From: Halichondria panicea
Lineage: Eukaryota; Porifera; Demospongiae; Suberitida; Halichondriidae
DNA: 64,000 nucleotides
Direction of reading: 5' to 3'
Assembly (NCBI RefSeq): GCF_963675165.1
Contig: NC_087377.1
Span: 12,386,632 to 12,450,631, forward strand
Of this stretch, positions 20,992-60,982 are shown one piece after another. The stretch's first letter is position 1, and each line of letters begins with the position of its first letter. Both the position numbers and the translations under genes were made by a program. The notes beneath the pieces were generated by a model. The model saw nothing but the letters and a program-made list of their open reading frames with translations. It was not told the origin of the DNA and made no database searches.

Positions 20992-22018
20992 GTTGTGGTA
21001 TTATTTGTTGCTACAGTTACAGGTCAGGTGGTTGACATCGCTTCAAATTTAGACGCAGCCGGTCGTAACTTTTCCTGCACTGGTGAAGTTGTCACATACA
21101 CTTGTAGCGCTCAAGGAACCACCCTGTTTGTACAGTTTCCACCATTAATAAATCAGCAAGCATTCATTAGCAGTGATCCTGTTCCTGATGTTCAGATATT
21201 CCCTACTGCTCTGAATGTTATTCTGACCCTGACAAGTGGAATGCCCAATTTTACTGCAAACCTGCAAATCAGAGTGACAAGTGATCCACAGCAGATGAAT
21301 TTTTCTTGTTCTACGGACATTTATGGCCCTCAGAACGATTTTGTACTACCACTACTTCATGAAGGTAAGTTGTCATACCGTATATAGCGGGTAATTTTTG
21401 TTGGTGCAAATTTCGAAATATTTCGTATTCTAAATATTTGTACAGCTCAGAATAGTGACATAGAACATTATTGCGTAATTTTCAGATTAATGCACAAATT
21501 ACGAAAATGTCCACCATACAAAAATAACCCGCTATAATAGGTAATTTTTATCCTTTCATATACAGCACAAATTGAACCACCTCTCACTATGACATTCTCT
21601 GGAGACACGACAGTATCATGGATCCCTCCTTTGAATCCCCAGTTTGACATTAATTATTATATTGTGAGAATGTACGTGGATGGAGTGTTGTACACGACTA
21701 GGAGCTCTCGTGATAATGGTCTGGACGTTAAGTTACCATCTGGAGAAATCACTGCTGATGTTCGTACTGTTAGCACTTGTGGCAGTGTTAGCGCTGCACA
21801 ACAGTCAGTGGGATCAGTCTCAGGAGGATATGCAAATGGATCAGTCTCCATGTCTATACCCAGTTCACAAAATTGTACGTAATAGTTAGCGCTGAATCAA
21901 TGCACTCATTTCTTGTATGGTAAAAATATATGCTCTCTCTGTAGCTGGCTTTTTGGTTCGCACACTAATTGTTGTTTTCATCACATCATCGCTGTTATCA
22001 TATAGCACTGGCTATTGA
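20992..22018 (+). CDS. Ig-like plus FN3 surface protein with GPI-signal-like tail
   Basis: Three exons fit: 20992-21364, 21566-21874 and 21945-22018, joined in phase 1. The first reads as the end of a signal peptide (VVLFVATVTG) and an Ig-like domain with Cys pair VTYTCSAQG and MNFSCSTD. The second is FN3-like (TVSWIPPLNP, NYYIVRMYVDG). With the GTACGT donor at 21875 the last exon reads SGFLVRTLIVVFITSS and ends SYSTGY-stop. That is a short hydrophobic C-terminus with no cytoplasmic tail, as in a GPI-attachment signal. The exon holding the start codon lies upstream of 20992 and was not found; an in-frame stop just before 20992 shows that this exon begins at the acceptor. It sits at the edge of the receptor cluster and shares its module order and intron phase, so it may act as a tail-less relative. 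Confidence is limited by the missing first exon. Confidence 0.6.
21385..21534. mobile_element. MITE inside intron of the Ig-FN3 gene
   Basis: The ends are inverted: TAGCGGGTAATTTTTGT and ACAAAAATAACCCGCTA. Related ends bound the 62067-62287 element and occur near 50428. It occupies most of the intron at 21365-21565. Confidence 0.75.
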
Positions 22019-22530
22019 CCAATTGGGAGAATAAAAAGGTACCGGTACTAACGGATTTGTAAATGGAATTTGTTTTGGGTGATAGTTTTTAATTAGGTTG
22101 CTGTGTTTTTCTCACTGTAGATTTGAAGAGACTCTAAAATAACATTTTAGTTAACATGTATAAAATACAGTTTGTAATATCAAAATTGGTCGTTTAGTGT
22201 CTATAAACTGTTGTTTAAACTAGAGTAATTAATAATTTAACGTATCATTGATTCGGGGTAGGAGCACCAGGTATACGCCATGGTTAATAGAGAAAATTAA
22301 CATTCTTGTTTTGCGTTCTTGACCTTTGCACCGTACTTTTCATACTATAGGAAGGTTTGTCACACTGACCAGGTGAGTGCAGCTAAGCTTAATAATTATG
22401 TGAAACATCAAACAGGACCTTCAGAGAAAGGGGACACTTAATTAATATGGACAGTGTTTCTGTGTCAAAAATGTCCTGTAAAATCTCTAAGGATAACCTT
22501 GATCTGTAGATCTGTCATAAATATTATTAC
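22019..22530. other. Intergenic, no gene seen
   Basis: AT-rich spacer. The stretch GACCTTCAGAGAAAGGGGACAC (part shown) near 22415 matches the upstream part of the HEAT-linked unit at 41097, so this is part of an old duplicated block. Confidence 0.5.
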
Positions 22531-22612
22531 CTCGTGGCTGGGCAGTGTGGGTAGGTGTGGTTGTCTGTCCTCTAGGGGGTGGACCAGGAACTCCCTCGTA
22601 GCCATGACATAC
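22531..22612 (-). pseudogene. Solo exon of the HEAT-linked gene
   Basis: The minus strand reads VCHGYEGVPGPPPRGQTTTP and on to TAQPR, ending at a GTAATA donor. The copies at about 162-235 and 63745-63790 are similar. The frame is open here, but no neighbouring exons of the gene are seen, so it is probably a stranded exon. Confidence 0.45.
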
Positions 22613-22710
22613 ACACCTAGGAGAAAGGAGTTAAGTAAAGAGTGGATAAATGTCTCAATGCTTGATACAGACTGTGACTCAGCAATTTACACAAATCTAT
22701 ATAATTATTA

Positions 22711-23242
22711 TGCCTTGGTGCGCATGCGCAAGTGAGGTATACGGTAGTGTATATAGTGTGTTTGTGTGTCTATCCATCTGTGTAGACTGCTACAGCTGCT
22801 CAACGATGAATCAAGTGCAAGTAAGAGTTTCTATAGGCTTCTAGTCATGTTTACTTGGATTTTAATTCGTGGATTTGCAAAATACTGCTTCGTTCTCGAG
22901 TTATGCCTACTTGGAATGCCATTGCAGCCTTTTCAGAAGAGCACGTAGCCAAACTTGTGTTTATCGAGTGTTGCTACTCTACTTAGTAGTTAGCTCTGCA
23001 CTAGAACGCTAACTATGGTAGCTGCAAGAGTGAAAAGAGAGCTGCAAGGCTCTGCTAATGCATGCCATTAACTTTAGACTTGAACTTTTGGCTATTGATC
23101 GTTTTTAACAACAATCATGGTACGTGGATTATTACACACTCTTTGAGTTTGCATGCAAAAATGTTCATCATAATGTCAGAGTGCATGTATACAAGCTTTT
23201 AGTAGCTTTATGTTATGTAGCTTTGGCATCTCCACCGAGGCA
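22711..23242 (+). mobile_element. Dispersed CCTCGGTG MITE, near full length
   Basis: It begins TGCCTTGGTGCGCATGCGCA and ends with CACCGAGGCA, an inverted repeat of about 10 bp. The body matches the copies at 16020-16499 (minus), 44625-45094 and 48320-48709. A TTCATCATAATG block and a TTTTAGTAGCTTTATGT block mark the distal part. A distal fragment also lies at about 28970-29095. Confidence 0.75.
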
Positions 23243-24278: not shown

Positions 24279-26142
24279 ATGCAGCTACAAACAGTTATTA
24301 TTTGCAGCACCCAGCTGTTCGTACTGGCTGCTGGTGAGTGTTGCATGTGTGCATGTGGCTAGCTAGCTATATAAAACTTGAGCTATATACATTTACATTT
24401 TGGCAGCCACTCTGACATCCACTCCCACTGTGGCCTGTCCTGGTGACACTGTCACCTTCACCTGCACTCTGCCTGGTAGTCTCATACGATGGAAAGTCAC
24501 TCCTCCAAAAGTTCAAGGACCTTCGTTTAGATTGACTTTAATATTCACCGGTAGTGGAAATGTCGCTGTGACTGAGGGTAATCCAGCATTCCGTGGTGTT
24601 CTCACTGATTCCAGTAGAGGAATGCTCACTGCCACTCTCACCTCACTGTCTGAGGCCTCCATTGTAGAAGGTACTATGGCGTTGTGTGAGGGAGCAAGCT
24701 CACAAGAGGGTCCTCTCACTATCACTGTGGCTGGTGAGTGACTGATGGAGTGCATACATGCATGTACACATGCACTGTCAGTTTATCAATACAATCATGC
24801 ACAGATTCACCCTCCCCTCCACTGAATCCAAGGGTGTCCTCCTCAGCCCAAAATCAACTCAGCTCCTCTAATATCAATCTGGAGTGGGACCTTCCCTCCT
24901 CTACTGGTGGTGTGTCTGTCAGCTATGTCCTCACCATCTCTCCAACACCTCTCTCCGGGTCACCAGTCACCGTGGAGACCACCTCAGCACAGATAACTGT
25001 CTCCTACAACACTCCCTACAATGTGACAATAAGAGCTGTCAACTGTGCTGGAATGAGTGATGATGATGTGATGATTATGATTCTTCCTATTGGTTAGTTT
25101 CTATTATAGCTGATCTCTTAGTGTATAATATTGTTTGCTGCAGTTACCTGCCCCTCCAACCCAACACCTGCGAACAGAGTTACCATCAATAGTGCTCCGC
25201 CACTGCCTGCACTAGTATAGGATCAACACTGAGCTTCACTTGCAATGGAGAGACAGTACCAGCAACCTGTGAGAATGATGGACGGTGGTCACCTGATCCT
25301 ACCCGTTACGTCTGTCCCTCGGGTAAATTAATGGTAAATCACTGTCATGAATGTTACTATATAGCCCCTCCTCTCAGATGTCACCTGTGGCTTTCCTGTC
25401 GCACCTTCCAGAGGCAGTGTGGACGTTAAGGATCGGACATCACCCTTTTCGATAAACTCAGTGGTAAACTTATATTGTGACAAAGGACTATTCCTAGCTG
25501 GTGATATGTCCAGTACGTGTGAAAATGTGGGTGGAGTGGGAACTTGGAAGCCGGACACGAACATCACATGCAGAGATATGCCTGGTGAGAATGCCATTGG
25601 CTAAACTTTTTGTGTGTATTATACATCTAATTTACGTTTCACCGCAGTCAACTGCTCTCTACCCAAAAAGCCATCCAACGGAACTATAGTGAACTATGAG
25701 AGTTTGAATGAGACAGTGTCGGAGGGAACAGTGCTGACTTACCAGTGTGACAATGGACTCTCACTGACTGGACCCAACACCATCACTTGCACTAATGCTG
25801 GTGTCTGGAGTACTGAGCCTGAGGCAATCGTGTGTGTACTTGAATGTGAGTAGCGCATTTGTTAACGGTTGATTTCCTATCAATTTGTTTACCTTCTCCA
25901 TAGATTATATTTCCGCCACCTTATCCACTGGTGCTGCTATCGTTATAAGTGTGATCATCACTTTCATTGTGACTCTAGTCACTGGATTCCTCACTGGACT
26001 CTTAGTGATGCACCTTTGCTCCCGTAAGAAGGCAGCTGAAGGACAAGCTAACGTAGGACCCACTGTACCAGCTGGTCCTGTTTATGAGGAGGTGTCACCC
26101 AAAATGGAAATTGAGCTATATAGTAACCATGCAAGCATATGA
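24279..26142 (+). CDS. Receptor A: Ig-FN3-CCP-TM protein, one CCP exon frameshifted
   Basis: Exons: 24279-24333 (signal peptide), 24407-24733 (Ig-like, VACPGDTVTFTCTLPG), 24805-25092 (FN3, LEWDLPSSTGGVSVSYVLT), 25144-25322 (CCP1), 25378-25584 (CCP2), 25648-25845 (CCP3, LTYQCDNGLSLTGPNTITC) and 25904-26142 (membrane span, RKK stop-transfer, tail). All introns are phase 1. CCP1 carries two extra bases (CTAGTATAGG against CTAGTAGG in gene F, near 25212-25216), which brings a stop at once. Skipping that exon keeps the frame and gives about 437 residues. The tail has GPVYEEVSPK but ends ELYSNHASI, so the second tyrosine motif of its relatives (NQAYGPL) is lost. This is probably a cell-surface recognition receptor. 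It is either a recent pseudogene or a gene that uses exon skipping. The start is the Met that gives the more hydrophobic leader; another ATG lies at 24265 in a different frame. Confidence 0.75.
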
Positions 26143-31681: not shown

Positions 31682-31712
31682 TGGTGATAATCAGTCGGAT
31701 ACGGTTTGCTGT

Positions 31713-34578: not shown

Positions 34579-37500
34579 ATGATGGGAGAAATGGAATTTC
34601 TTGTCCAAAGATGTCTCCTGCTTTGTCTCTACATAACATCAGCTCTAGGTGTTGCAAGTAAGTTCATGTGGTTGTGTATGAGGCTAGAGCTTGAGGCCTA
34701 GACTCTAGCTAGCTTTAATCTCAGGGAGTGTATGAAGATACATACACTCCTGCTTTAATTAATAGCTTTTTGCTGATGATTGTACATGTAGAGTTGGGAT
34801 GCAAATAATAGTGATTGGAAGTGGTTAGTGACAGGAACTGGAAACAAAAGCAGAGATTCTTCACACTTTGTTTCCTGTCATATTTCCCTGTATAAGTTTA
34901 GTACCGTAATTTAGCTCCGTGTTAGCCTCGTTCCCAGGCCGATCCATCGACTAGGAGTCGACCTAACGTTCAATTGGAGACGGATCGGCCTGGGAACGAG
35001 GCTAGCTCCGTGTATGCTCTCAAGTAACTAAAATCTAGCCATAGATTGTCTAGCTAGCTAGCTATGGCAAGTTTAAGTTGTTTACATTGTCTTGCTTCCA
35101 ACATAGATAGAGTAGAAGAGGGATTGGAAACGGAAGTACCCTCGAAGTCCATCCGTGTATCTCCGCGGTTTTAATCGAGGCTTACTTTTTAACACGAGGG
35201 CTAAACATGAATAATTCATGAGAATTGTTTTGCTCTCTGTAAGAAGTCCACGAGCAGTTCTGCTGCTAAACATCAACTTTCTCTAATACTTGAGGCCATT
35301 TGGGACACAGGACACTATTTAGTTACAAAGCCTTAGCTATATCAAAGGTACTATAGGAACACAAGCGTGAAAAGCGCTCTGTGTACCTCTAGCTACTTCA
35401 CGACAATCGAGATTATATTTTCTTTGTTTCCAATTGATACCTACTATCAGGGGGCATGTGATTCAGTAATGGGGGTAGCTCTGAGATGTATGCTTTGGAC
35501 ACAATAAGTTTCCCGGGCTTTTGTGGGAGTTATGAGGAGATACACGGATGGTCCCAGAGCCACTACGTAGACTTCACTGTAAAACATCACGTGAATCACT
35601 TCCGTTTGCAATCCCTCTTCTACTCTATCTATGCTTCCAAGAAGGCCCCACTCTCATTGCAGAACAGTCCCAACTCTTGTCAGAAGGAAGAAACGTCTTT
35701 GCCCGGTTTTTATCGACGCTTCATTTGCATAATTATGTGGTGCAGTTACCGGATTAGTAATTCCTATTCCTCCTAGACGGACAGGAAGAGCCAGTAAGAT
35801 TTCTCACTTCCCTTGAACACGCTGGTTGTTCAGTCAAGGCAAGAAGCAAGTCGTGTTGGATCGTGTCCTCCAGAGGGTTGCTGCAGGTCAGCAATGTCTG
35901 GAATCATACGTGACAGGAAGGACCAACGACTGGAAAGACCATGCATGAACGTCGGCACAGTAGGCTGCGTGGGGTTGTGATTGGGCAATATTAGCTAGTA
36001 GTTTTATCTCCTCCGACCACTTTCTGACTTTGCTTGTCACATATTCAACAGTGTGGGATCTCGAGCCAATTGCAGCTTTAATTAATAGTAGAAATTTGCA
36101 ATGATAAGGAATGCAGTAATTCATTAGTCACAAGGCCAGAGGTCAGTCGAGGTAGTTGAGCCACTATAGCTACAGGTCGGTTAAACTTAATAAAATGTGT
36201 CTTATGAAATTGAGGCGATTTAAGTGCCATGTATGATTATGAGTGAAAAATGTTCAAATGTCGTATATTTAGAGGGTCACCTCTGATACAGGTTGGTTGG
36301 CAGAAGTTCAAAGTTGAAATGCAGTCAAGTATGACCACTAATTGCATTAGTGAAGTATAGACATACACTGTGTGAATGAGATGGCATGACTGACTGGCTG
36401 CACTTCAACTTCTACTGCTGTCAACCAACCTGAAGTCCTCTGTAGGTAGCTAAAAATACTATATAGTACAAGCTATACTTATACTAACTCAGGTCTTGCT
36501 ATATTAATTACTATCTCAAATCATATTTTTCGGTATAAATTATGATTATAGATTAATATTTTATTTTACTGTCATTTCTCTACCAAAAGAGGCGTCTCTA
36601 ATGTCGAACACGAGTGTAGCATGTCCTGGTGAGGCTGTTTTGTTCACATGCTCTTCGCCTGGTACTTCGTTGACATGGCAAGTGGATCTACTATCACCAG
36701 CAGGGACGTCACTGCAAAGTTTCTTCCTTCCCTCACAAATTGGTGGTCGAAGAACACTTGGACCTGGAGTGATCATGTTTGAGGCTGTTCTTGTGAGCAA
36801 TGATGGTGGAACTCTGACATCCACTCTCATCAACCTCAGTGAAGTGTCTGTACTGGATGATAGCAATGTCACCTGTACTGTTACTAACAATGGTCCTATG
36901 TCACAGCAGCAAACCATCATGGTTGCTGGTGAGTATTTATACTTCATAATTATACCTGAGATTTTTAACTTTCAGTTGTCCCAACACTTCCACTCAATCC
37001 AAGCGTATCCTTCATTCAAAACCAGCTCAGTTCGTCCATTATCACTCTGGAGTGGGACCCTCCCTCCTCTACTGGTGGTGTGTCTGTCAGCTATGTTCTC
37101 ACCATCTCCCAAACACCTCTCTCTGGGTCAGCAGTCACCATGGAGACCACCTCCACACAGATCACTGTTTCCTATAACACACCCTACAATGTGACCATCA
37201 GAGCTGTCAACTGTGCTGGAATGAGTCAAGAAAGTTCAATTGTGGATCTAAGTAAGCTATACTTCATGGTGACTGCCGTCATTGATTATAGGCTGCAATT
37301 GTATATAAGTAGGCTATTTTATGATCATAAAACATAAATGCCTTTATCAATCAATGCAGTTGTGTGCCCCACACCATCTACTGCTACTGGTGTGACTATC
37401 ACCAACACACCTCCTGTCACTATTGGTGGATCCATGCTCACTTTCACTTGCAGTGGAGACAATGAAGTGAGAACCTCAACCTGTGGCACTAGTGGATGGT

Positions 37501-38566
37501 CTCCTAACCCTGGGACCTTTGACTGCAGCAGTCCGATTACAGGTATATAATCTTAATCAAAAATGTGTACATGCTTCTTTTCATTGGTGTCCTCATTAGA
37601 TCCCCCAGTCACCTGTGGCTCTCCTGATGCACCATCCAGAGGTAGTGTGGACATCAATGGTGGGACACCACCCTTCTCACTGGGTTCAGAGGTCACCTAT
37701 CGCTGTGACGAGGGACTGTTCCCCTTTGATGTGAGGACCAGCACATGCACTGATGTGGGGGGTAGGGGAGAGTGGGTGGAGAATCCTGGGAGCTTGATGT
37801 GCAGGGAGAGACCAGGTGAAATGTAGTTGATCAGAACAAAATTTTCCTGCGAAAAAATAATTTCTGTCTGCATGATCTGTCTACAATTGTATTCAATGGC
37901 AGGTCATATAATATTGGGTGCTCATGTTGAGCTGATGAGATACAAACATCTGTCATGTGCTATAGTCATAGTATAATCATAATTATGATATAGATATATT
38001 TTCTGACCGTCCATATAATTATAGTCAACTGCACTGTACCTGTTGAGCCCTGCAACGGTGCTATAATGGACCATGAGAGGTTGAACGAGACAGTGTTGGA
38101 GGGAACAGTGCTGACTTACCAGTGTGACAATGGACTCTCATTGACTGGACCCAACACCATTACTTGCACTAATGCTGGAGTCTGGAGCACTGAGCCTGAG
38201 GCAATCATGTGTGTACTTATGACTGAAGGTGATATATAATTATATAGATGAGCTTTGTAATTGTTTGCTATTTATATACTACCGGTACCTCATCTCACAG
38301 TTTCTACTGTCGCTTCCTTGTCCACTTCTGCAACTGTCGCTATCAGTGTGGTCATCACTTTCATTGTCACTCTAGTCATTGGGTTCTTCACTGGACTGCT
38401 GGTGATGCATATTTTCTCTCGTAAGAAAGCAGTGTACTTCCCAGCAACTGAAGGACAATCTAATGTAGGACCCACTGCACCAACTGGTCCTGTTTATGAG
38501 GAGGTGTCACCCAAAGAGGAGATTGAACTCAACACAAACCAAGCATACGGACCAGTAGGACTGTGA
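34579..38566 (+). CDS. Receptor B: signal-Ig-FN3-CCP x3-TM-tyrosine tail
   Basis: Exons: 34579-34657 (signal peptide, MEFLVQRCLLLCLYITSALG; the second or third ATG may be used), 36590-36928 (Ig-like, TSVACPGEAVLFTCSSPGTS), 36976-37251 (FN3), 37360-37542 (CCP1, diverged from those of A, E and F), 37600-37815 (CCP2, CGSPDAPSRGSVDI), 38025-38228 (CCP3) and 38301-38566 (membrane span VAISVVITFIVTLVIGFF, RKK, tail). All phase 1; about 520 residues with no lesion seen. The tail has VYEEVSPKEEIEL and ends NQAYGPVGL. YEEV resembles a Src-family SH2 ligand (pYEEI) and NQAY an NxxY PTB-type site, so phosphotyrosine signalling is likely. Intron 1 is 1.9 kb and full of transposon pieces. The signal exon matches that of gene E, but its upstream sequence is replaced by a transposon. 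The call is strong; the promoter is unknown. Confidence 0.85.
34925..35002. mobile_element. Mini GCCTCG-family palindrome, TA-flanked
   Basis: GCCTCGTTCCCAGGCCGATC faces its complement with a centre of about 38 bp. TA lies on both sides. It sits in intron 1 of gene B. Confidence 0.8.
35102..35633. mobile_element. Inverted-repeat element in intron 1 of gene B
   Basis: CATAGATAGAGTAGAAGAGG at 35102 faces its complement at about 35614-35633. The arms run about 36 bp with one mismatch (through GGAAACGGAAGT). Similar ends (AGGGATTGG.AAC) occur near 20905, 51250 and 51885. Confidence 0.7.
36278..36432. mobile_element. Small foldback repeat in intron 1 of gene B
   Basis: AGGTTGGTTGGCAGAAGTTC at the left faces the complement of TGTCAACCAACCT at the right, with imperfect arms of about 40 bp. 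No coding content. Confidence 0.65.
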
Positions 38567-42713: not shown

Positions 42714-44317
42714 ATGACACTAATAGAGATAATAAAGCTCATTAGAGTTCTTCTGATTTGCTTTCTGGCTGGCTTCAGCACTGGTAAGACTGACTATTCA
42801 ATTATAGATTTCCTTACATTGCTGCATGTTTCGTAAAGCACAATATTCAGTGAGTGTGGAGAGACCATGTCCAATGGAAACAGTCACTTTCACCTGCACT
42901 GCTCCTGGAGATTCCTTGAGATGGTCACCATCAGATGTTACTAGCATCACTATCCTCTCCTCCTTGGGTCTCAATGTACCACTAATGCAGTCAGATTACA
43001 CTGTGACACTGATTGCATTCAATGACACTACATTAACATCTACTCTGTCAAGAACAGCAGAGAATGGGATCACTGTGTCCTGTGTTGAGCTTAGTATACC
43101 TACTCTGACCACTATAGGATCTTCAACAATCCGATTGGTTGGTGAGTTGCAGTTAGTGTCTCGTCAATTGTCTGTATACACTAAGTTACATAGATCCACC
43201 AGGATCACCTTCCACAATAAGATACTCCATTCTGAGCAGCTCAGCTAATGAAGTCAGCGTATCTGTGCAGTGGGACCCTCCAACTGAGATTGGTGGTAGA
43301 GATGACCTCACCTACACAGTGACCGTCTCACCTCCGGCCCAGCTCTCTGCTACTGTCCTCACATCCACCTCTGTCACTGTGACTGCTCAATACGATGTGG
43401 ACTACACTGTAAGTGTTATGGCTACCAATTGTGCTGGGAACAGTACAACTGCTGACTACAACTTTAGGATTGGTGAGTATTATTATTTTGACACAAATTG
43501 TCAACTCCTTAATTCTCAGGTAAATGTCCTGTGTTGACCAACCCCATGAATGGAGCCTTTGGACCAGTCTCCAGCAGATTATCAGGATCCACAGTAATCA
43601 TCCAGTGTGACACTGGGTATGTATCTGCTGTTACAATGGTGACATGTGAGGGTACACTAATGTGGAGTCCAGACCCTGAGGCTATTGAGTGTACATTACT
43701 AACCACACCTACTCCCACAACTCGTGAGTTAAGCTCTTGGTTGTAGGAAATTAATACAAAATATCTATGTTAATCATTACACAGCTCCTCCAATAAACTG
43801 CACAGCTTCACTACCCTCACCACGGAATAGCATTATCAGTGATCATTCAGTACCAGCTTTTCCCGGTACACAAGTTACCCTCCAGTGCGACGATGAACTG
43901 TTCCCTGAGGGAATAATGACTGCTACCTGTCTAGCTACAGGAAAGTGGGACGAGGAGATCGTCTGCAGAGGCAAGTGTATTCATTACTTGAATATACACT
44001 TGTAATAATACTTCTCTCTTGAACAACCTACAGCTGCTCCTTTTAGTTGTGCCAGCCTATCTGATGGGAGTCGATTTGATGCAGCTGTCTCCATCGGCGT
44101 TGTTGTCACAGCAGTTGCGTTCACAATCATTGGATTATTGATAGGTCTCTTGATCATGTATTTGTTCATGCGTAAGAAGGCAGTATGCTCCCCAGCAGCT
44201 AAAGGACAAGCTAATGTTGGACCCACTACACCAGTTGGTCCTGTTTATGAGGAGGTGTCACCCAAAGAGGAGATTGAACTGAATACTAACCAGGCGTATG
44301 GACCAGTAGGACAGTGA
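42714..44317 (+). CDS. Receptor C: signal-Ig-FN3-CCP x2-TM-tyrosine tail
   Basis: Exons: 42714-42783 (signal peptide, MTLIEIIKLIRVLLICFLAG), 42839-43141 (Ig-like, VERPCPMETVTFTCTAPGDS), 43194-43472 (FN3, VQWDPPTEIGGRDDLTYTVT), 43520-43723 (CCP1, CPVLTNPMNGAFGP), 43785-43970 (CCP2, CTASLPSPRNSIISDHS) and 44034-44317 (membrane span VVVTAVAFTIIGLLIGLLIM, RKK, tail). About 441 residues, phase 1 throughout. The intron after CCP2 starts with GC (GCAAGT), a GC-AG intron. The extracellular part is clearly diverged from A, B, E and F and lacks the third CCP, yet the tail VYEEVSPKEEIELN..NQAYGPVG is the same as in B. So the signalling end is conserved while the ectodomain differs. No lesion is seen. 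Probably a cell-surface receptor; the ligand is unknown. Confidence 0.85.
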
Positions 44318-45094: not shown

Positions 45095-45610
45095 TCAGCA
45101 CCTGCGGTGCTTTCATTATTGTTTGCAATTGTTGGCAATGAATCCACACACAGTCAATAGAAGAGGAGCTTAATGGCAACAGAAATCTATTATCTGATGG
45201 CTTGGTAAACTAGAGCACTAATTTAAAAGTGCTAACCCTCAGCTGTCGACATGAATCTATACAAACTTGAAGCGTGTTACACAATAAATGCAGATGTATA
45301 ATGTGTATATGTGTGTACATGCATGGACACAAAATGAGCTGTTTGAACGAACTAGACACTTTCATAGGCTGCTTTAACTGCTGTACTTGAAACTTTTAGG
45401 CGATCTTCGAAGGCGACAAACCAATTGATTTAATCGTTGCTTTATAAATTCACGATCATAATTATATTCCCCATAATGATAAACTCGTTACGGTAAAAAG
45501 TTATTGTATCCGTTTTGCTGCTGTGCGATGAAGCTCAACGCACAGTGTGAATGCTCTACTGAGCATTGTTATGAAAATTAATACTTCCCAACAGTATGTT
45601 ATTTACACAG

Positions 45611-46166
45611 CTCCTCCAATGAACTGCACGGCTCCACTATCCTCACCACAGAGTGGCACCATCAGTGATCATTCAGTACCTGCTCTTTCCGGTAAACATG
45701 CAAGTGACATTCCAGTGTGATGATGGACTCTTCCCTGAGGCTGAGGGCATAATGACTGCCACCTGTCCAGCTACAGGAGAGTGGGACCAAAACCCAGTAG
45801 AGATCCTCTGCAGTGGCAAGTGTAGTCATTACTTAAAGTAATTATGCTTCTATATACCTTGAACCACTTATACAGCTGTTTCTTACAATTGCGCCAGCCT
45901 ATCTGATGGGAGTCGATTTGATGGAGCTGTCTCCATCAGCGTGGTTGTCATGGCATTCTATTCACCGTCATTGAATTGTTGATGGGACTCTTGATAATGT
46001 ATTTGTTCATGCATAAGAAGAATGTGTACTCCCCGTCAGCTAAAGAGCAAGATAATGTATAGGACCCACTGCACCAACTGGTCCTGTTTATGAGGAGGTG
46101 TCACCCATGCAGAGAGGAGATTGAACTGAATACCATAACCAGGCGTATGGACCTGTAGGACTGTGA
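45611..46166 (+). pseudogene. Receptor C' remnant: CCP2 and TM exons only
   Basis: Two exons matching gene C: 45611-45815 (CCP2, with the same GC donor GCAAGT) and 45876-46166 (membrane span and tail). Signal, Ig, FN3 and CCP1 exons are missing. The upstream block (45340-45580) is the C-type promoter region, now joined straight to CCP2. Lesions against C: a 4-base insertion in CCP2 (near 45697-45701), one base lost in the span (about 45953), two extra bases in AATGTATAGGACC, a 4-base insertion after the VSP codons (about 46107) and two extra bases near 46134. It cannot make a receptor. Confidence 0.85.
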
Positions 46167-47249: not shown

Positions 47250-48081
47250 ATGACACTAATAGAGATAATAAAGCTCATAGTTTTTTTGATTTGCTTTCTG
47301 GCTGGCTTCAGCACTGGTAAGACTGACTATTCAATTATAGATTTCCTTACATTGCTGCATGTTTCATAAAGCCCAATATTCAGTGAGTGTGGAGAGACCA
47401 TGTCCAATGGAAACAGTCACTTTCACCTGCACCGCTGCTGGAAATTCCTTAAGATGGGAACCGTCAGATGTGACTCGTATTCTTGTCCGCTTCTGATCTC
47501 AATGTACCAATGACGTTATTTGGCTACACTGTGACACTGATTACAGCCAATGACACTACATTAACATCTACTGTGTCAAGAGCAGCAGAGAATGGGATTA
47601 CTGTGTCCTGTGTAGATCCTGAGCCTACTGCGACCCTGATAGGATCTTCAATAATCCGTTTAGCTAGTGAGTAATGTTTTTTTTCTGTCTAGGCCATTGT
47701 ACCATCATATTCGATTTCTTATAGATCCACCAGGACCACCTTCCATAATAAGACACTCCACTTTAAACACCTCAGCCAATGAAGTCAGTGTATCTGTACA
47801 GTGGAACCCTCCTACTGAGAATGGTGGTAGAGATGACCTCACCTACACAGTGACCATATCACCTCTGGCCCAGCTCTCTACTACTGTCTTCACATCCACC
47901 TCTGTCACAGTGACTGCTCAATACAATGTGGACTACACTGTTAGTGTTGTGGCTACCAACTGTGCTGGGAGCAGTACAACTGCTGAGTACAGCTTTAGGA
48001 TTGGTAAGTATTATTGTTTTGTACACACAGTTTCAACTGATCCTCTCAGGCAGCTGTCCTGCGTTGACCAACCCCATGTGA
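47250..48081 (+). pseudogene. Receptor D: C-like gene, frameshifted and truncated
   Basis: Exons: 47250-47316 (signal peptide, MTLIEIIKLIVFLICFLAGF), 47372-47666 (Ig-like), 47725-48003 (FN3, VQWNPPTENGGRDDLTYTVT) and the first 32 bases of CCP1 (48050-48081, SCPALTNPM-stop). The Ig exon has one extra base (around 47488-47498), giving an early TGA. CCP1 breaks off after CCCCATG and continues as sequence from the 3' UTR of gene C (ACGATTTTAACAACTGTAA), so the rest of the gene, including the membrane span, was deleted. At best it would encode a short secreted fragment. It is the closest relative of gene C. Confidence 0.85.
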
Positions 48082-51640: not shown

Positions 51641-52075
51641 TAACTAGTTTTCAAGCTCTAGAACACCACAGTCAATTCTTCCACGCTTGGACTTCACTTT
51701 AAATAAAGCACAGGACACGTGTAGCCTTACTATACGCAATTCTAAAGTCTCATGAGACTAATAACTAACTAAAAGTAATAATTATTACTTCGTTTCGCGG
51801 GCGTTGTGCCGGGAAATAATGCGCATCAAGGATGGTTGAGAGGAAATCAGTACGAAATCAATGTAAAATGATCACGTGACTTACTCCCGTTGCCAATCCC
51901 TCTATTAGGCCACTCCAAGTGATACTCTGGTTTCTGGTCCACCGCCCGCATCAGATTTTATTCTTGGATTTCTACAGAGGTTTTCAGGTTGCTTGTCACA
52001 AGCCTTTGTGAAGGTGAAGTGCGCATGCGCATAATTAAATTATATTTGAACTTACAGTGCTGAAGGATTGTCAAC

Positions 52076-53041
52076 ATGCCTAACCCGTACTCAAATGATC
52101 TTCGTTGGAGAGTAATTTGGTTGTATTTAGCTAAGAATCTTTCAATAGCAGAAGTATCTGAGCTCGTTTGTGTCAGTGAAAGAACTATTAAACGATATAT
52201 TACACAGTTTAATCAAACTGGTGATGTTCATCCAGCAACTCATCAACATGGACCTCCTAAGCTCTTAGGCGAATTTGAGCAACTTGTCCTGCTAAGATTG
52301 ATCACTGAAAACACAGGAATCTACCTGTATGAGATACAGACCAAACTAGTGGCACGGTTTGGTGTGACTGTAAGTGTAGCAACCATTTGCAGAACATTGA
52401 AGTTTATGGGGTGCTCTAGACAAGTGATCAAACATATCCCTATCAGACGCAGTGAAGAACTCAGAGCAAAGTTTATGGCTGAAATCTCCATGTATGACCC
52501 TTCTATGCTAATTTGGCTAGATGAAACTGGATGTGATAGACGTAATAGCACAAGAAAATGGGGGTATAGCATACGAGGTATACCACCAAAAGATCACCAA
52601 ATACTTGTGAGAGGAACTCGATACTCCTGCATACCTATCATATCTATGAAAGGAATACATGATATCCATATTATTACCGGAACAATGGATGGTGCGAGGT
52701 TTGAAAACTTTCTTACTACAACTCTTCTACCTATATTACAACCATTTAACTATCTTAACCCCTGTTCCGTTGTTATAATGGACAATGCTTCAGTCCATCA
52801 CGTAGCAGAAGTTGAAGACTTAATTGAGAATCAATTCGGTGCTCGATTAGTGTTTTTGCCTCCTTATTCTCCAGACCTAAACCCAGCAGAGGAAGTGTTT
52901 AGTGAAGTAAAAAGCATAATGAAACAAAACAATGCTTTATTTCAAGTCACTACTAATCCAAGGTTTCTGTTAGCTACGGCATTCAGCATGGTCACCAAGG
53001 AGGACTGCTTAAAGTTCATTACACATTCTGGATATTTATAA
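52076..53041 (+). CDS. DDE transposase, IS630/Tc1-like
   Basis: 321 residues, intronless. The N-terminus is a helix-turn-helix unit of the homeodomain-like type (YSNDLRWRVIWLYL, LSIAEVSELVCVSERTIKRY), residues about 5-50, followed by a second DNA-binding half (about 60-110). The catalytic core has the first Asp in LIWLDETGCD (about 147), the second in VVIMDNASVHH (about 235) and a Glu in LPPYSPDLNPAEEVFSEVK. By my count there are about 35 residues between the last two. The triad appears complete. It should cut and paste the surrounding element by binding its terminal repeats. A protein of this length without stops suggests that it is or was recently functional. The exact superfamily is uncertain: the sequence is IS630/Tc1-like, but the apparent 3 bp TTA duplication is not the usual TA. 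Confidence 0.9.
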   Translation: MPNPYSNDLRWRVIWLYLAKNLSIAEVSELVCVSERTIKRYITQFNQTGDVHPATHQHGPPKLLGEFEQLVLLRLITENTGIYLYEIQTKLVARFGVTVSVATICRTLKFMGCSRQVIKHIPIRRSEELRAKFMAEISMYDPSMLIWLDETGCDRRNSTRKWGYSIRGIPPKDHQILVRGTRYSCIPIISMKGIHDIHIITGTMDGARFENFLTTTLLPILQPFNYLNPCSVVIMDNASVHHVAEVEDLIENQFGARLVFLPPYSPDLNPAEEVFSEVKSIMKQNNALFQVTTNPRFLLATAFSMVTKEDCLKFITHSGYL

Positions 53042-53124
53042 TTATCATACAGGACAACAATTATTAATACGTACAACTATTATACATGCACAATTTTTAT
53101 TGAAATTCTGTTAACTGGAAAAAA

Positions 53125-54072
53125 TTAAGAAACAGTTTTGTTCAGGTGATGAAGGAGACTCATGATCGACTCTTTCTCGAAGCAAAATTCACTTTCAGAC
53201 AAAATTCCTGTGCTCTTCAAATTTTGAAGTTCTGAAAGCTGTCTATACAGTTTTGATCGACCTTCAATGACCTTTGCAGGACTACTACCAACTGCACTTG
53301 TATCTTTTGGAGAGAGAGCAGAAGTTATGGCTGTTTCAGCTTCACTCATTATATGAGATACAGAGTTTTGACTTTTCTTGCGATAAGGAGTTCCTCCTCC
53401 AGACCTAGCAAACATTGTTGTATTTGGGGGATCGTCCAACCCCTCGTGTAAACCACCAGTAATCATTTCTCCCCAAATGCGATACTGCATCAATGTGAAT
53501 TTCGACCCATACTTTTCTTTTAGATTTTCCACAGTCTCCTGGACCTCGTCTTCTTTACTGGTGTCACTTTTCTTTTTCTTTTTAACACTGTCTTCATTTA
53601 TAGATGCTGTTTTTTTCCTCTTATTTCCTCTTGCTGTGGTAACTGGAATGCATTCTTTAAGACCATCACACCATAGTGTTAAACTACAATTGGGCTTGTT
53701 TAAATCAGACAAAACTTCATACACGTCTTCTTCACTACGACTCCGTATCACAGTAGATCCACGTACGTAGCCAACATCAAAGTCTTCCTGTGTAATATCT
53801 TGACACAGTTGGCTTCTTATTACTATCTTCAGATCATCACATGAACAAACTAGAGCAGTATCGATATTACGAAGGGTAAAAGATCGACACACCTTACTAT
53901 CGTCCTTACACACTGCTCTCAAAACAATTTTGTCCAGTTTGGTAGACTTTTCATTCGACAAAGGGTGACCTTGGCATCCTGACAGTGGAGTAACCCTAAC
54001 TCTACCGCTGTTTACTGTCACACTGTGTTGTATTAAGTTTCTAATAGCACTTTGACTAAGATTCATCATCAC
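53125..54072 (-). CDS. Second ORF of the transposon, unknown function
   Basis: 315 residues, transcribed towards the transposase gene, with 83 bp between the stops. About residues 40-135 look like a ubiquitin-fold or PB1-like unit (STKLDKIVLRAV, LVCSCDDLKIVIRSQL, YEVLSDLN, LTLWCDGL). A lysine-rich stretch follows (KRKKTAS, VKKKKKS), likely a nuclear signal. Then comes a conserved-looking block (KYGSKFTLMQYRIWGEMITG, DDPPNTTMF) and a C-terminal helix pair (LQNLKSTGILSESEFCFEKE) that resembles a SHOCT-type segment. I recall the QYRIW...G.H...DPP pattern from unannotated sponge proteins, but give it no name. It sits within the terminal repeats, so it is cargo or an accessory protein of the element and not a host gene. 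Confidence 0.75.
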   Translation of the reverse strand: MMMNLSQSAIRNLIQHSVTVNSGRVRVTPLSGCQGHPLSNEKSTKLDKIVLRAVCKDDSKVCRSFTLRNIDTALVCSCDDLKIVIRSQLCQDITQEDFDVGYVRGSTVIRSRSEEDVYEVLSDLNKPNCSLTLWCDGLKECIPVTTARGNKRKKTASINEDSVKKKKKSDTSKEDEVQETVENLKEKYGSKFTLMQYRIWGEMITGGLHEGLDDPPNTTMFARSGGGTPYRKKSQNSVSHIMSEAETAITSALSPKDTSAVGSSPAKVIEGRSKLYRQLSELQNLKSTGILSESEFCFEKESIMSLLHHLNKTVS

Positions 54073-54435
54073 TCATTCATTTTTCAAGCTAGCCTAGCCA
54101 CGTGTCTCAGTGGAGTCCAAAGTTCATACAGTAGAATAATTGATACGCATGCGCGGCTCTATGTGACAAGCAACTCTGTATTGGATTTCTATCCCATTAT
54201 TTTACTACGCATGCGCATAATGGTCCATGCGGTACAAAATAGTGTGATAATAATATTCATTTGCAAAATAATGAGATTCATAAGGTGAAATTGATAATGA
54301 CATAATGAGAAAAGCCGCCCGCCCGCATGCAATTAGAAAAACTTCAGGACAAGAAACCAGAGTGTCACTTGGAGTGGCCTTACTCTATCTCTGGTGCAGC
54401 TATAAATGTAGTTTATGTCGCTGGGATTCATTTTC

Positions 54436-56635
54436 ATGCAGTTAGCGATGGATCTTCTTGTCCAGATATGTCTCCTGTTCTATCTCCTATCATCTTTTGT
54501 TGTTGCAGGTAAAGTTCGTGCCTAGACTAGATCTAGCCTGGGTACCGGTACGTAGCTATGTTTTAAGGTAGATAGGCTGATAGCAGATGTATCATGTGTA
54601 TTCAGTATTCAAGTACAAATACATGTAACTGTACCATATTATTGCCCTATTAGATACTTCTGTCATTTTGATTCCAAAACAGAGGCCACTTTGGATCTGA
54701 TGTATAACACGAGTGTGGCGTGTCCTGGAGAGACAGTTCTGTTCACATGCTTCGTACCTGGTGGTGTTGCATTGCAATGGAGAGTAGATCCTCCAGCAGA
54801 GTCTATGTTGATGTCAGAAGTACAAACGAATCCATTCACTATATTCTCACAAGTTGGTCGAAGGGACACATTTGGATCTGGAGTGATCATGTTTGAGGCT
54901 GTTTTTGTGAGCAATGATGATGGAAATCTGACGTCCACTCTCATCAACCTCAGTGAAGTGTCTGTACTGGATGGTAGCAATGTCACCTGTACTGCTACTA
55001 TTAATAATGGTGTTGTAATAGAGTTACAACAGACTGTCACAGTTGCTGGTGTGTTTTTAAATTCTCCATGCAGCTAATCATGAATTTGCAGGTGCCCCAA
55101 CTTCTCCACTCAACCCAATAATTTCCTCCATTCAAAATCAAACTCTCTCTTCCATTATCACTCTGGACTGGGACTCCCCCTCCTCTACTGGCGGTGTGTC
55201 TGTCAGCTATGCCCTCACCATCTCCCCAACACCTCTCTCCGAGTCACCAGTCACCGTGGAGACCACCTCGGCACAGATAACCATCTCCTACGACACTCAC
55301 TACACTGTGACCATCAAAACTGTCAACTGTGCTGGCAATAGCAGTGCTGTAATGGTGGTGATTCCTGCTATTGGTTAGTAGAAGTGACCAATAGAAGTAA
55401 TGCAGTGTCCTTTTTTCTATGGATTAGTAACCTACACCTTATATTATGTTTCTCCAATGCAGTTACCTGCCCCTCTAATCCACCACCTGCGGATCGAGTG
55501 ACCATCAATGGTCGTCCGCCACTGCCTGTACTAATAGGATCAATACTAAGCTTCACTTGCAATGGACAGACGGTATCAGCAACATGTGAGAGTAATGGAC
55601 GATGGTCATCTGACCCCACCACTTACATGTGTCTCTCAGGTAAGTTGTAATTAATATCATGGCTGCATTGTACGCTATAGTCCCCTCCTCTCAGTTGCCA
55701 CCTGTGGTTCTCCTGCTGCACCATCTAGAGGTAGTGTGGACATCAGTGGTGGAACACCACCCTTCTCACTGGGTTCAGAGGTCACCTTCCACTGTGATGA
55801 GGGACTGTTCCCCCCTAATGTGAGGACCAGCACATGCACTGATGTGGGGGGTAGGGGAGAGTGGGTGGAGAATCCTGGGAGCTTGGTGTGCAGGGAGAGA
55901 CCAGGTGAAATGTAGCTGTTTAGAAGCTTGATTTTTCTGTAAAATAATTTGTTTATGTGACTGCATGTGTACAATTGTACCGCCTTTGTTCCACATTTCT
56001 TAGTATTCTGCAATGGCAGGTCATTAATGGGTGCTCATGTTGAGCTGATGAGATACAAAGATGTATACTCACAGTTATTTTCTGACCGTCCCTATATATA
56101 TAGTCAACTGCACTGTACCTGCTGAGCCGTGCAACGGTGGTATATTGGACTATGAGAGGTCGAATGAGACAGTGTTGGAGGGAACAGTGTTGACTTACCA
56201 GTGTGACAATGGATTCTCACTGACTGGACCCAACACCATCACTTGCACTAATGCTGGAGTCTGGAGTACTAAGCCTGAGGCAATTGTGTGTGTACTTATG
56301 ACTGAAGGTGATGAGCTTTGTAATACTGTATACTATCTATACTATCTCCTTTCACAGTTTCTACTGTCGCTCCTTTGTTCTCCACTTCTGCAACTGTCGC
56401 TATCAGTGTGGTCATCACTTTCATTGTCACTTTAGTCATTGGATTCCTCACTGGACTCCTAGTGATGCATGTTTTCTCTCGTAAGAAGGCGGTGTACTTC
56501 CCGGTAACTGAAGGACAAGCTAACGCAGCGTCCACTACACCAGTTGGTCCTGTAACTCCTGTTTATGAGGAGGTGTCACCCAAAGAGGACATTGAACTCA
56601 ACACAAACCAGGCGTACGGACCATTAGGACTGTGA
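54436..56635 (+). CDS. Receptor E: signal-Ig-FN3-CCP x3-TM-tyrosine tail
   Basis: Exons: 54436-54508 (signal peptide, MDLLVQICLLFYLLSSFVVA; Met at 54436 or 54448), 54683-55048 (Ig-like, TSVACPGETVLFTCFVPG), 55092-55373 (FN3, LDWDSPSSTGGVSVSYALT), 55463-55639 (CCP1, VTCPSNPPPADRVTI), 55695-55904 (CCP2), 56104-56307 (CCP3, CTVPAEPCNGGILDYERSN) and 56358-56635 (membrane span VAISVVITFIVTLVIGFLTG, RKK, tail). About 529 residues, phase 1, no lesion seen. The tail has an extra VTP before VYEEVSPKEDIEL and ends NQAYGPLGL. Its Ig domain is the closest match to that of B. A 2.47 kb transposon ends 56 bp before the first ATG, so the promoter may be displaced. Likely a signalling surface receptor. Confidence 0.87.
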
Positions 56636-57429: not shown

Positions 57430-57482
57430 AAAGACTCACGTTTGATTGTGTTGTTCTCTTCTCCCTCCGAGGATCATAAAAC
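57430..57482 (-). pseudogene. HEAT-like partner gene, 3' exon stub
   Basis: The minus strand has only the end of the last exon (MILGGREENNTIKR-like reading, mutated from MILRGRVEQHDPM). The rest was lost where receptor F begins. Confidence 0.5.
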
Positions 57483-57658
57483 TTAGTGTTGTCCTAATTG
57501 ATATTGAACAGCTCAGCAAAACTTCAAAGGATAATCGCATTCATGACACTATCCAATCTACCACAGAAACCAATATCAACATTGACAAGTTGACAGCGCG
57601 CTCCCGAGTTTCTAAAGCTGCTATTGCTAGCTAGGTACAGCAACGCTCGCACCACAAC

Positions 57659-60600
57659 ATGGTTGAATTTTGGATTAAGATGGCCTTGATACTTCAAAGC
57701 CTGTACAAAACGGCAAGTGCAAGTAAGAATACAGTGAGCAGTATTAAAACATGCAGTTTAATTATAAAATGCATGCATATGCAGATTCTGCTTTGATGTC
57801 TAGCGCTGGTGATGGCTTGGCCTGCCCCACTATCTCAGTGGTATTCACCTGCTCTGTTAATAGAAGTTCACTTTTGTGGGAAGTGGATCCTCCACCTGAC
57901 GTGGTTACTGCGCAGTTGACACAAGTGGTGTCTTCTGCTTCTACTGAGCTAGTACCTATAGGGGTAGAACGTTTCATGTTTCAAGCAGCTAGAACTAAAT
58001 TTAGTAGTAATAGCCTCACCTCCACCCTTACCACAGTCACTGAGGTGTCCTTGCTGAACGGCACCGTTGTACGTTGTATTGGAGAAGCAACAGAATCCCT
58101 AACGATCATTGTTGCAGGTGAGACATAATTATATAATAGTTTTAATTGAGTACAACTGATCTCTTACAGAGCCACCCACTTCTCCATCAGCTCCAATAGT
58201 GGCTTCACAACAAAACCAAATCAGTTCCTCTATTATCACTCTGGAGTGGGACCCTCCCTCCTCTACTGGTGGTGTGTCTGTCAGCTACGTCCTCACCATC
58301 TCCCCAACACCTCTCTCCGGGTCACCAGTCACCGTGGAGACCACCTCAGCACAGATAACTGTCTCCTACAACACTCCCTACAATATGACCATCAGAGCTG
58401 ACAACTGTGCTGGCTCTAGTACTGATGTGATGGTGACAATTCCTTTTATTGGTTATACTAGCTTCACTGTACATTTAATTTAATGCAGTTACCTGCCCTT
58501 CTAACCCACCACCTGCGAACAGAGTTACCATTGTTGGTGCTCCACCACTGCCTGCACTAGTAGGTTCAACACTAAGCTTCACTTGCAATGGAGAGACGGT
58601 ATCAGCAACCTGTGAGAGTAATGGACGATGGTCACCTGACCCCGCCACATACGTCTGTCTCTCAGGTAGGTATATTCACTGTCATGACTGTATACTATAA
58701 TCTTTTCTCAGATCTCACCTGTGGCTCTCCTGCTGCACCATCCAATGGCAGTGTGGATGTCAGTGGTGGGACACCACCCTTCTCACTGGGTTCAGAAGTC
58801 ACCTATCACTGTGACGATGCATGGACTGTTCCCCCTTGATGTGAGGACCAGCACATGCGCTGATATGGGGGGTAGGGGAGAGTGGGTGGAGAATCCTGGG
58901 AGCTTGGTGTGCAGGGAGAGGCCAGGTGAGGCAGCCAATTCCATTTCTTGTTTTTAAACTTTACTTCTTTATATGCAGCTAATTGCACAGTACCCAAGGA
59001 GTCCTCCAACGGAACTATAGTGAACTATGAGAGGTTGAATGAGACAGTGTTGGAGGGAACAGTGCTGACTTACCAGTGTGACAGTGGACTCTCACTGACT
59101 GGACCCAACACCATCACTTGCACTAATGCTGGAGTCTGGAGCACTGGGCCTGACACCATCGTGTGTGTGTCACCAACTGAAGGTGAGGATAATTAACCCG
59201 AGACTCGTAGGCAAACATGGGTTTTAGTAGTTTCTTGTTACCCGAGGCCGTGCCGCGGCCAGCGGGTATAGTAGTCCATTGTCTGTTTGCGTATTCTGAG
59301 TCTACTCACCTGGATATCATAGTTGTTTTGGAAGGCTTCTTCGCTGACTCTCTTAGTTTTGCTGTGCTGTCCAACTCAGTCATACACTACTGCTTTTATT
59401 GTACATGTATATCACTCCTCTGGTTTCTATATCTTGTCTTTAGTGTTCTAGTCTGTCTGTCTGTTTACCTGTGTATTTTGAGTCCGCTCACCTGGCTGCC
59501 ATATAATTATAGCGATTCTTTTGCAGCATGGATAGCCTCAACACAAAAAGTTCAGTTATTGGAGTGGTTGCTTTGAATGAAAGCGAGCAAATCTTACCCT
59601 GCACGCGTTTAGGTATACAATGTATACGTATATACATGAGCCTAAAGCATTAATTTGAGGCGCACCAGTATGATTGTACTATATATACTACACAGCCATG
59701 TGCATGGAGCGTCTTGGGAAGGCTGGCTCTGCTGTGATCAGTGGCGTGTCTATATAAGGTGTGAGCACCCCCCCCCTGGCCTCCCAGACAACTATGAAAA
59801 TAATCTAGCTATCAGCACTGGCTGTGCAGCTCTATCGAGGCAAACTATATTGGCAAGTCATGGCCACACCCAACTTGACAATTGATGCATGCACAATGAG
59901 CATTGGCAATATTATTATTCAATCATGATTCAATCAGCAATTTGTTTCCCCTTGTCTAATTAACGATGGGGCATAAAATTTCAGCTACATGCTGTGCACG
60001 TCAAGGACTTAGTGCTTGTCAGATGCATGTGTTAGCTTAGTTACGATCGTAACCACACTCATGTTGTAATATACAATGTCACATGCTCCAGGGTTTGCAG
60101 CGACATTGAAGTTATCACACACTATTTTTCATCCTCAAAATTTAGGAAAATCACTCGTGCAAAGTAAACGCTTTTTCTAGGAGGGGACCCCCCGCTCTAC
60201 CAACGGCTAATTTGGCGCTCGGATGCAAGTATCCTATATTTAAGCTAATCACCCCTTAATATTTGAAAACCACATTTTCACCCGCTTGGGCAAATTCCCC
60301 TGATATGATATGTATATAACATTCCGGACTTCTTTGCTGACTCTGCTGTGCATGATCCTATAGCTAGCTATATAATATTATTATAGTCCCATGCATGCAT
60401 AAGTCTGACCATGCACCACCATCTACAGTACGTGGTGTCTAGTGGCACCACAGCCGTTTTCAAATTATAAATCATTATTCTGGTTGTCTTCTGCATGACT
60501 ATATTATATAGACCTTAATTCATTGTCCTCTGTGAATTGCTGCTATAGGTTTCCATGATATATACATTAAAATTAATTCTGCGGTTTTCCCAGAGTCTGT

Positions 60601-60982
60601 CACATAATTATAATATTGGTATAACAACACAGTACTCTGGTTGTGATAATATATACTAGTGCTCTATAGTTTGTTATCCCTATATAATTATTGCCAATCT
60701 TCCACAGCCCCGACTGTGACAGCTGCTGCCACACTATCAACTGGTGTAACTCTTGCCATCGGTGTTATTATTACTTTCGTTGCGTCTACTCTCCTTGGAT
60801 TTCTCGCTGGGCTCCTAGTGATGTACTCGTTCACGCGTAAGAAGGCAGTGTACTACACAAGAAAAACAGCATTATCTGTTGTAGAACCCACTAAACCAGT
60901 TGGTCCTGTTTATGAGGAGGTGTCACCCAAAGAGGAGATTGAGCTGAACACTAACCAGGCGTATGGACCATTAGGACGGTGA
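57659..60982 (+). CDS. Receptor F: Ig-FN3-CCP-TM protein, CCP2 exon frameshifted
   Basis: Exons: 57659-57722 (signal peptide, MVEFWIKMALILQSLYKTAS), 57785-58117 (Ig-like, LACPTISVVFTCSVN), 58170-58451 (FN3, LEWDPPSSTGGVSVSYVLT), 58489-58665 (CCP1), 58712-58925 (CCP2), 58979-59182 (CCP3) and 60708-60982 (membrane span VTLAIGVIITFVASTLLGFL, RKK, tail). CCP2 has four extra bases (GACGATGCATGGACTG against GACGAGGGACTG in B; near 58815-58822), so it runs to a stop at 58839. Skipping that exon leaves the frame open and gives about 444 residues. The tail has VYEEVSPKEEIEL and ends NQAYGPLGR. The intron before the last exon is 1.5 kb and holds unrelated sequence with one cluster-foreign open frame (59217-59576). 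Function as for B; status uncertain between a recent pseudogene and an exon-skipping gene. Confidence 0.78.
59183..60707. other. Expanded last intron of receptor F
   Basis: In the other receptors this intron is about 50-75 bp; here it is 1.5 kb. It contains a CAGTGGCGTGTCTATATAAGG end like that of the 5 bp-duplication family (about 59740), a C-run, and TTTTCCCAGAGTCTGTCACA from the 15.2 kb MITE family (about 60585). No exon is supported. Confidence 0.65.

Follow-up and report, generated by a model that had tools for sequence, protein, structure and literature searches.

What would a sponge do with a tandem array of immunoglobulin-type receptors? The question is raised by a 64,000-nucleotide stretch of the Halichondria panicea genome (NCBI RefSeq assembly GCF_963675165.1, contig NC_087377.1, positions 12,386,632 to 12,450,631 of the forward strand), here called the window. 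An earlier note on this DNA described tandem units with an immunoglobulin (Ig)-like head, fibronectin type III (FN3) and complement control protein (CCP, Sushi) domains, a transmembrane (TM) segment and a tyrosine-bearing tail, and such units are borne out on the plus strand at about 24.3-61.0 kb of the window. A clustered, diversified family of V-type Ig-headed, tyrosine-tailed receptors is strongly supported, on a scale far beyond the window. The window is a small part of a region of contig C1 with more than 200 receptor genes and gene remnants. We conclude that this region probably represents a germline-diversified paired-receptor complex, with discrimination of self from non-self or of microbes as its likely use, and that recognition of variable ligands is likely. 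Positions without a contig refer to the whole window, L-numbers denote fetched genome loci and C1, C3 and so on are contigs. Genes C, D and F are the three genes of the window that are open through all detected exons.

A large complex on one contig

A genome search with Tail I, the tail carried by most members, gave at least 150 matches among 295 first-look candidates, all at C1 11.249-14.928 Mb. The class-1 Ig query gave 114 matches, with all 132 candidates scored, and the class-2 query gave 121, with 150 of 185 scored. Merged at 700 bases, the C1 matches of both classes form 210 loci, 208 of which fall within 11.2-15.0 Mb; like the tail counts, these head counts take in pseudogenes, fragments and duplicates. 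Contig C32, of 5 kb, has one further class-2 match. A third head class, also joined to Tail I (L083, L084, L086), has 51 matches at 13.95-14.54 Mb, and a fourth occurs once (L085).

Twenty class-1 and twenty class-2 genes were fetched, mostly picked from stop-free heads. Thirty of the 40 are unflagged in all exons (14 of 20 in class 1, 16 of 20 in class 2), counting as unflagged L053 and L056, which were flagged solely for a neighbour's tail; frames were checked per exon, not as chained exons, and a flag may reflect a failure of splice scoring. Signal-exon candidates were found in 33 of the 40.

Very recent duplication or the assembly may have inflated the copy number, because the 9.65 kb block that carries genes C and D has a twin with 99.88-99.95% identity at C1:11704001-11713700, 717 kb away. 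Such blocks are either very recent segmental duplications or were duplicated in the assembly. It is very unlikely, in our judgement, that the complex is largely an assembly artefact, a smaller family swollen by uncollapsed haplotypes. The 99.9% identical blocks 717 kb apart and a tyrosinase frame with two more copies at 100% would suit this explanation, but three copies are more than two haplotypes can supply, and most compared copies are far more diverged: class-1 Ig exons are 31-72% identical to that of gene C and class-2 exons 77-89% to that of gene D. The 61 distinct Tail I peptides also argue against it.

Near-identical heads on different tails

The paired-receptor reading draws on heads that recur with different tails. 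Fourteen heads without a listed tail were fetched, and five of them (L089-L093) start a second tail, Tail II, with a TM exon unlike that of Tail I. The head of gene F is found again on Tail II genes. Gene F, with Tail I on the plus strand, and L089, with Tail II on the minus strand, lie 1.03 Mb apart in inverted orientation; their DNA, introns included, is 98-100% identical from the signal exon through FN3, 91-94% in CCP1-2, 80-85% in CCP3 and 36-49% in the TM segment and tail. Gene F and L090 share 92-100% from the first intron through CCP2, 72-86% in CCP3 and 42-47% beyond. L043 and L091 share 85-99% from Ig to CCP2, have an unlike next intron, reach 90% in one CCP3 window and fall to 43-55% beyond. 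Because identity collapses at the tails in all three pairs, genes with almost the same head carry different signalling parts, which is one of the marks of paired receptors. A control pair in which both genes bear Tail I, F and L040, keeps 91-100% identity all the way from signal exon to tail. With Ig identities of 70-71%, L092 and L093 have no comparably close partner among the Tail I genes compared.

Exon distances agree with mosaic genes. Their correlation is weak from head to tail (Ig-TM r 0.21 in class 1 and 0.28 in class 2) and strong for some other pairs (CCP2-TM 0.79 in class 1, CCP1-TM 0.69 in class 2). In class 1, median synonymous divergence (dS) is 1.03 for Ig, 0.94 for CCP1, 0.33 for FN3, 0.37 for CCP2, 0.20 for CCP3 and 0.24 for TM; because it differs between exons, these have been homogenised to differing extents. 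Class 2 has median dS of 0.19-0.32 across domains, with no pattern of this kind.

Tails with tyrosine motifs

Tail I has about 49 residues and two YxxV/L tyrosine motifs spaced by 13 residues. All of 61 distinct peptides, which were collected by pattern and are hence biased toward intact tails, have the first tyrosine (two of them as YEEM), and 60 have the second; the exception is gene B. YEE[V/I/L] and the second motif occur jointly in 58 of the 61, with the 13-residue spacing in 56 of these 58.

Tail II is carried by a minority of members. Its TM exon has seven strong matches, all on the minus strand within the cluster. L101, which continues L089, and L102, which continues L091, add nine more exons, and the splice phases chain in both. 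The resulting cytoplasmic part, about 320 residues long, has proline-rich ends and contains a Death-like segment as well as seven YxxV/L/M motifs. The motifs are YSEL, YSRV, YDEV, YSTM, YAAL, YATV and a seventh, YxxV, at the end of the Death segment. LTYDEV, VVYAAL and VTYATV in L101 and L102 match the consensus of the immunoreceptor tyrosine-based inhibitory motif (ITIM), and shuffling the two tails 10,000 times gives three such matches 88 and 49 times. By its sequence, Tail II thus supplies candidate inhibitory members. The ITIM exon has 22 matches, all at C1 11.41-13.81 Mb, inside the cluster; 19 have E<1e-10, four of these with a stop. L105 carries a class-2 head, a TM exon and the ITIM exon in this order on one strand, with putative splicing.

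Other tails occur on the same heads. Tail III (L087, L088, L094) has PVYEEV and, on a separate exon, an N[EK]AY[GE]QV motif. It also occurs outside the cluster, on C6 and, on C1, at 16.5 and 17.6 Mb. In L106 (C1:16526900-16529600) it has tandem PVYEEV motifs and sits behind an IgGFc_binding domain (E 2.5e-13), so that this tyrosine tail module is common to unrelated receptor families. L080 (9.87 Mb) has a class-1 head, a CCP2 split over two frames and three YDEI repeats. No tyrosine motif was noticed in the tail frame of L081 (10.42 Mb), L095-L099 have mostly Tail I or a variant, and no TM segment was picked up in L100. A long open frame at L103 (C1:14717500-14719700), beside a class-2 head remnant, has a RING/TRAF-like cysteine pattern by eye.

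The tails also bear on a different explanation, a microbe-sensing repertoire in which the V heads bind bacterial or symbiont surface molecules and the tails control phagocytosis or the death of the sensing cell. A very high copy number with many damaged copies and a Death-like tail would fit a pathogen-driven family, and the related Tail III is also found on IgGFc-binding-type receptors. There is, however, no evidence of a secreted form or of a ligand, and the Death match is below threshold; we regard microbe sensing as possible and lean away from it.

Receptor genes in the window

The elements found in the window are the following, all on the plus strand, with exon borders scored for each gene and for element A.

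20992..21879, plus: element A, a two-exon fragment, Ig-like and FN3-like by eye
24279..26139, plus: gene B, damaged; signal peptide (SP)-Ig-FN3-CCP-CCP-CCP-TM-tail
36590..38566, plus: gene C, open; Ig 36590-36928, FN3 36976-37251, CCP 37360-37542, 37609-37815 and 38025-38228, TM/Tail I 38301-38566; also Pfam and V-Ig model
38420..38566, plus: Tail I of gene C, the conserved two-tyrosine tail (YEEV ... QAYGPV)
42714..44317, plus: gene D, open; SP 42714-42783, Ig class 2 42839-43141, FN3 43194-43472, CCP 43520-43723 and 43785-43976, TM/Tail I 44034-44317; also Pfam
45532..46121, plus: CCP-TM relic, a frame-shifted pseudogene with CCP and TM/Tail I exons
47279..48020, plus: pseudogene E, a class-2 Ig with a frameshift, and FN3; no CCP or TM noticed
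54448..56635, plus: gene F, open; SP 54448-54508, Ig 54683-55048, FN3 55092-55373, CCP 55463-55639, 55695-55904 and 56104-56307, TM/Tail I 56358-56635; also Pfam
57785..60982, plus: gene G, Ig-FN3-three CCP-distant TM/Tail I (60708-60982); SP candidate 57659-57722

The earlier count of at least five receptor genes and two pseudogenes was too generous, as C, D and F alone are open through all detected exons. E and the CCP-TM relic are pseudogenes, genes B and G are frame-shifted, and A is a fragment. Gene B is frame-shifted in the CCP1 exon (25144-25322) and at the tail end, and gene G in CCP2, with a weak FN3 donor (score 3.5). Element A has no Pfam match, and no CCP, TM or tail was noticed nearby. 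The exon chain encodes receptors that run signal peptide, Ig, FN3, two or three CCP, TM and tail; a signal-peptide exon was searched for and not found for gene C and element A.

The ectodomain exons of C, D and F are all phase 1-1 by acceptor and donor scoring. A few of their borders score poorly, the lowest being the donor of the second CCP of gene D (2.5). The earlier domain calls fared unequally in Pfam. Sushi is above the cut-off in C (E 1e-13), D (2.8e-10) and F (1e-15), with two passing stretches per gene, and the remaining CCP of C and of F is assigned from likeness and position. The fn3 scores are 30.9 bits for C, 21.5 for D and 19.8 for F, so that C alone passes the cut-off of 25. C, D, F and A give no match to Pfam Ig or V-set families, and the best Ig match of five further head exons is Ig_3 (E 0.094, 13.7 bits vs a cut-off of 30), a failure that covers both head classes of the window and one exon each of classes 3 and 4. 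The Ig identity of the heads rests on structure prediction, in which the class-1 head is modelled as an Ig beta-sandwich with C' and C'' strands and B/F cysteines, as in a V-type domain.

Variation in the heads

The earlier note proposed a recognition locus, and this is still the best reading, given the distribution of nonsynonymous divergence (dN) in class-2 heads and the near-identical heads on different tails; a ratio of dN to dS (omega) above 1 is absent from all pooled domains and segments. In the class-2 Ig domain, the B-C-C'-C'' and F-G segments have a dN of 0.293 and omega of 0.84 (bootstrap 95% 0.60-1.18), vs a dN of 0.036 and omega of 0.23 in the rest. When the mask was shifted circularly, all 108 shifts fell short of this eightfold ratio of dN. 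The segment test was not blind, because the segments were drawn from the weak class-2 model with the alignment already in view, and dS is doubled there too (0.349 vs 0.156). Class-1 subgroups of 8 and 9 genes go in the same direction, more weakly. Positive selection was considered as well, and pairwise counts do not demonstrate it.

The same data can be set against a structural adhesion family, in which the heads serve ordinary cell-cell adhesion, the tails serve to anchor signalling and neutral duplication explains the expansion. FN3 and Ig domains are common in adhesion proteins, omega is below 1 throughout, and the near-identical blocks suit recent neutral duplication. Neutral adhesion genes accord poorly with the concentration of dN in the class-2 V segments, with different tails on shared heads and with an ITIM-consensus exon restricted to the cluster, and we consider this explanation improbable.

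Several results weigh against a complex of paired recognition receptors. Pooled pairwise omega is 0.39-0.62 across every domain (40 genes, flagged exons dropped), and with the interval of the class-2 segments spanning 1, positive selection is not demonstrated. The class-2 head model is weak (pLDDT 52.5) and comes closest to an antibody Fab entry (E 1.4e-2); in Foldseek, neither the class-1 nor the class-2 model has a match at E<=0.001. Tail I of gene C is neither an ITIM nor an ITAM (immunoreceptor tyrosine-based activation motif) in a motif scan, and the Tail I TM stretch has no K, R, D or E by eye, unlike classical activating partners; an activating member with a charged TM residue or an ITAM was therefore not found. 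The opposition of Tail I and Tail II is one that we infer. Pfam Death scores on two Tail II sequences are borderline (21.5 and 18.1 bits, E 2.6e-4 and 3e-3, below the cut-off of 22.6), and a PDB sequence search with the Death segment, on an earlier and differently bordered exon join, had no match up to E 5. Among the copies are duplicates with 99.9-100% identity that may come from the assembly.

Comparison with known receptor systems

The combination of domains had been thought not nameable from a described system. This needs revision, as the fester co-receptors (FcoR) of Botryllus partly match it: in the available text of PMC12065747, these are V-type Ig, sushi and TM proteins with ITIM or hemITAM tails in the histocompatibility locus, fuhc. 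Shared with the sponge are clustered type I receptors with V-Ig and sushi domains and one TM segment, tails with ITIM or YxxI/L/V motifs and differing signalling motifs inside one family (PMC12065747). In FcoR there are two C2 Ig domains, and FN3 is missing ("fibronectin" is absent from the available text of PMC12065747). The sponge receptors have FN3 with between one and three CCP, and their tails include a shared two-tyrosine one and a Death-like one. Their SP-Ig-FN3-CCP-TM chain leaves no two extra Ig exons, so that the full FcoR architecture (V-Ig, sushi, two C2 Ig, TM, ITIM/hemITAM) was not found. The head loci counted in the sponge complex exceed the 53 FcoR loci reported in the same text (PMC12065747), and a histocompatibility role is known for FcoR. 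In the available parts of PMC11067881 and PMC11999971, the Alr genes of the Hydractinia ARC are likewise a large linked V-set-headed single-pass family with many presumed pseudogenes and an Ig membership backed by AlphaFold; unlike in the sponge complex, allelic control of fusion is established for Alr.

A possible alternative is a histocompatibility complex, in which the V heads would recognise one another or a polymorphic self ligand and so govern tissue fusion or rejection, like Alr and fuhc. Size and clustering resemble the ARC (at least 41 Alr loci in the available text of PMC11067881), FcoR are similar in make-up (53 loci; PMC12065747), shared heads bear different tails, and variation is concentrated in the B-C-C'-C'' and F-G segments. 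Yet the case is built on one genome, and the available main text of the Amphimedon graft transcriptome (PMC5450542) is without the words immunoglobulin, fibronectin and sushi. We treat histocompatibility as a serious possibility that we do not favour. The fuller version, a sponge histocompatibility complex in which 3.7 Mb hold about 250 V-Ig head loci, counting remnants, and in which copying between inverted genes keeps the shared heads of different tails matched, seems rather unlikely to us.

FcoR and Alr are the closest in plan to the sponge receptors, followed by vertebrate paired receptors, and membership of none is claimed. The sponge receptors are set apart by FN3, by more than one CCP, by the Death-like tail and by their copy number. 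Vertebrate paired receptors (KIR, PIR, SIRP, NITR) have near-identical heads on different tails in one cluster, with ITIM-bearing members. Their activating partners have a charged TM residue and an adaptor, where the sponge Tail I has two tyrosines and no TM charge. We know of no Death-like segment in vertebrate paired receptors. Sponge aggregation factors, which are proposed allorecognition molecules, have a secreted proteoglycan core with Calx-beta/Wreath; genes C, D and F gave only Sushi, fn3 and weak unrelated matches in Pfam, in which no search with a named Wreath model was made. This family is named in the available parts of PMC12065747 and PMC5450542. Sponge SRCR receptors are likewise expanded and associate Ig and FN3 domains, but they carry SRCR domains, for which C, D and F have no match, and the available part of PMC4772301 makes no mention of a clustered V-head family. 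The part of PMC12465263 that was available gives Ig I-set counts only. According to the 2025 review (PMC12065747, in part), candidate allorecognition proteins of sponges, cnidarians and ascidians are not conserved. No sponge complex of this kind is described in the literature searched (titles and abstract openings in open-licence PMC, and part of the matching papers).

Proposed mode of action

We propose that the membrane-distal V-type Ig domain would read a variable ligand, held on an FN3-CCP stalk with a single TM segment and a signalling tail. Ligand binding by the head would cluster the receptor and lead to phosphorylation of the tail tyrosines. Phosphorylated Tail I could then dock SH2 proteins, while Tail II may recruit a tandem-SH2 phosphatase and/or a death adaptor and so trigger cell death. 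The genome has 71 SH2 matches. At C3:8404573-8406287, two SH2 matches are followed by a partial Tyr-phosphatase match on one strand; this candidate gene would have the domain order of SHP-type phosphatases. Heads may be copied between members with different tails and inverted orientation, by recombination or conversion, and one ligand could therefore be read by receptors with different outputs. By analogy with the paired receptors of natural killer (NK) cells, the balance of receptors with the same specificity might set the response.

The genes behind sponge graft rejection are a long-standing open question, and a mapped interval with V heads and ITIM-type tails is a direct candidate for fusion and rejection. 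Confirmation would mean that NK-style balance of paired receptors is very ancient or was repeatedly invented. Were the fuller histocompatibility version true, ITIM-type paired receptors would be older than the divergence of sponges and the other animals, and ITIM signalling and a Death segment would be linked directly within a single receptor family. Head sharing between inverted genes offers a test case for how receptors of differing output keep the same specificity.

Neighbouring and other genomic features

The window also encodes a tyrosinase (3850-5685, E 4.3e-37), which has two further 100% copies and several diverged ones on the same chromosome. A DDE_3 transposase open reading frame (52064-53041) lies between receptor genes, and the minus strand has a 315-residue open frame (53125-54072) with no Pfam match at E 0.01.

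Elsewhere in the genome, C4 carries a very large array of Tyr-phosphatase and Sushi matches with similar TM segments at about 0.04-2.6 Mb, which is probably a second giant receptor family, of CCP-headed receptor phosphatases. An array of about ten Bcl-2 family matches is found at C3 0.86-1.62 Mb. A Bcl-2 gene of this genome matched Bcl-2, Bcl-X and one BAX entry among the 60 matches listed of 185. The presence of SH2, Bcl-2, Tyr-phosphatase and Sushi genes and of phase 1-1 exons accords with an animal genome. Dense Sushi-repeat clusters outside the receptor complex lie at C9 5.62-5.68 Mb, C2 6.45-6.48 Mb and C15 3.86 Mb.

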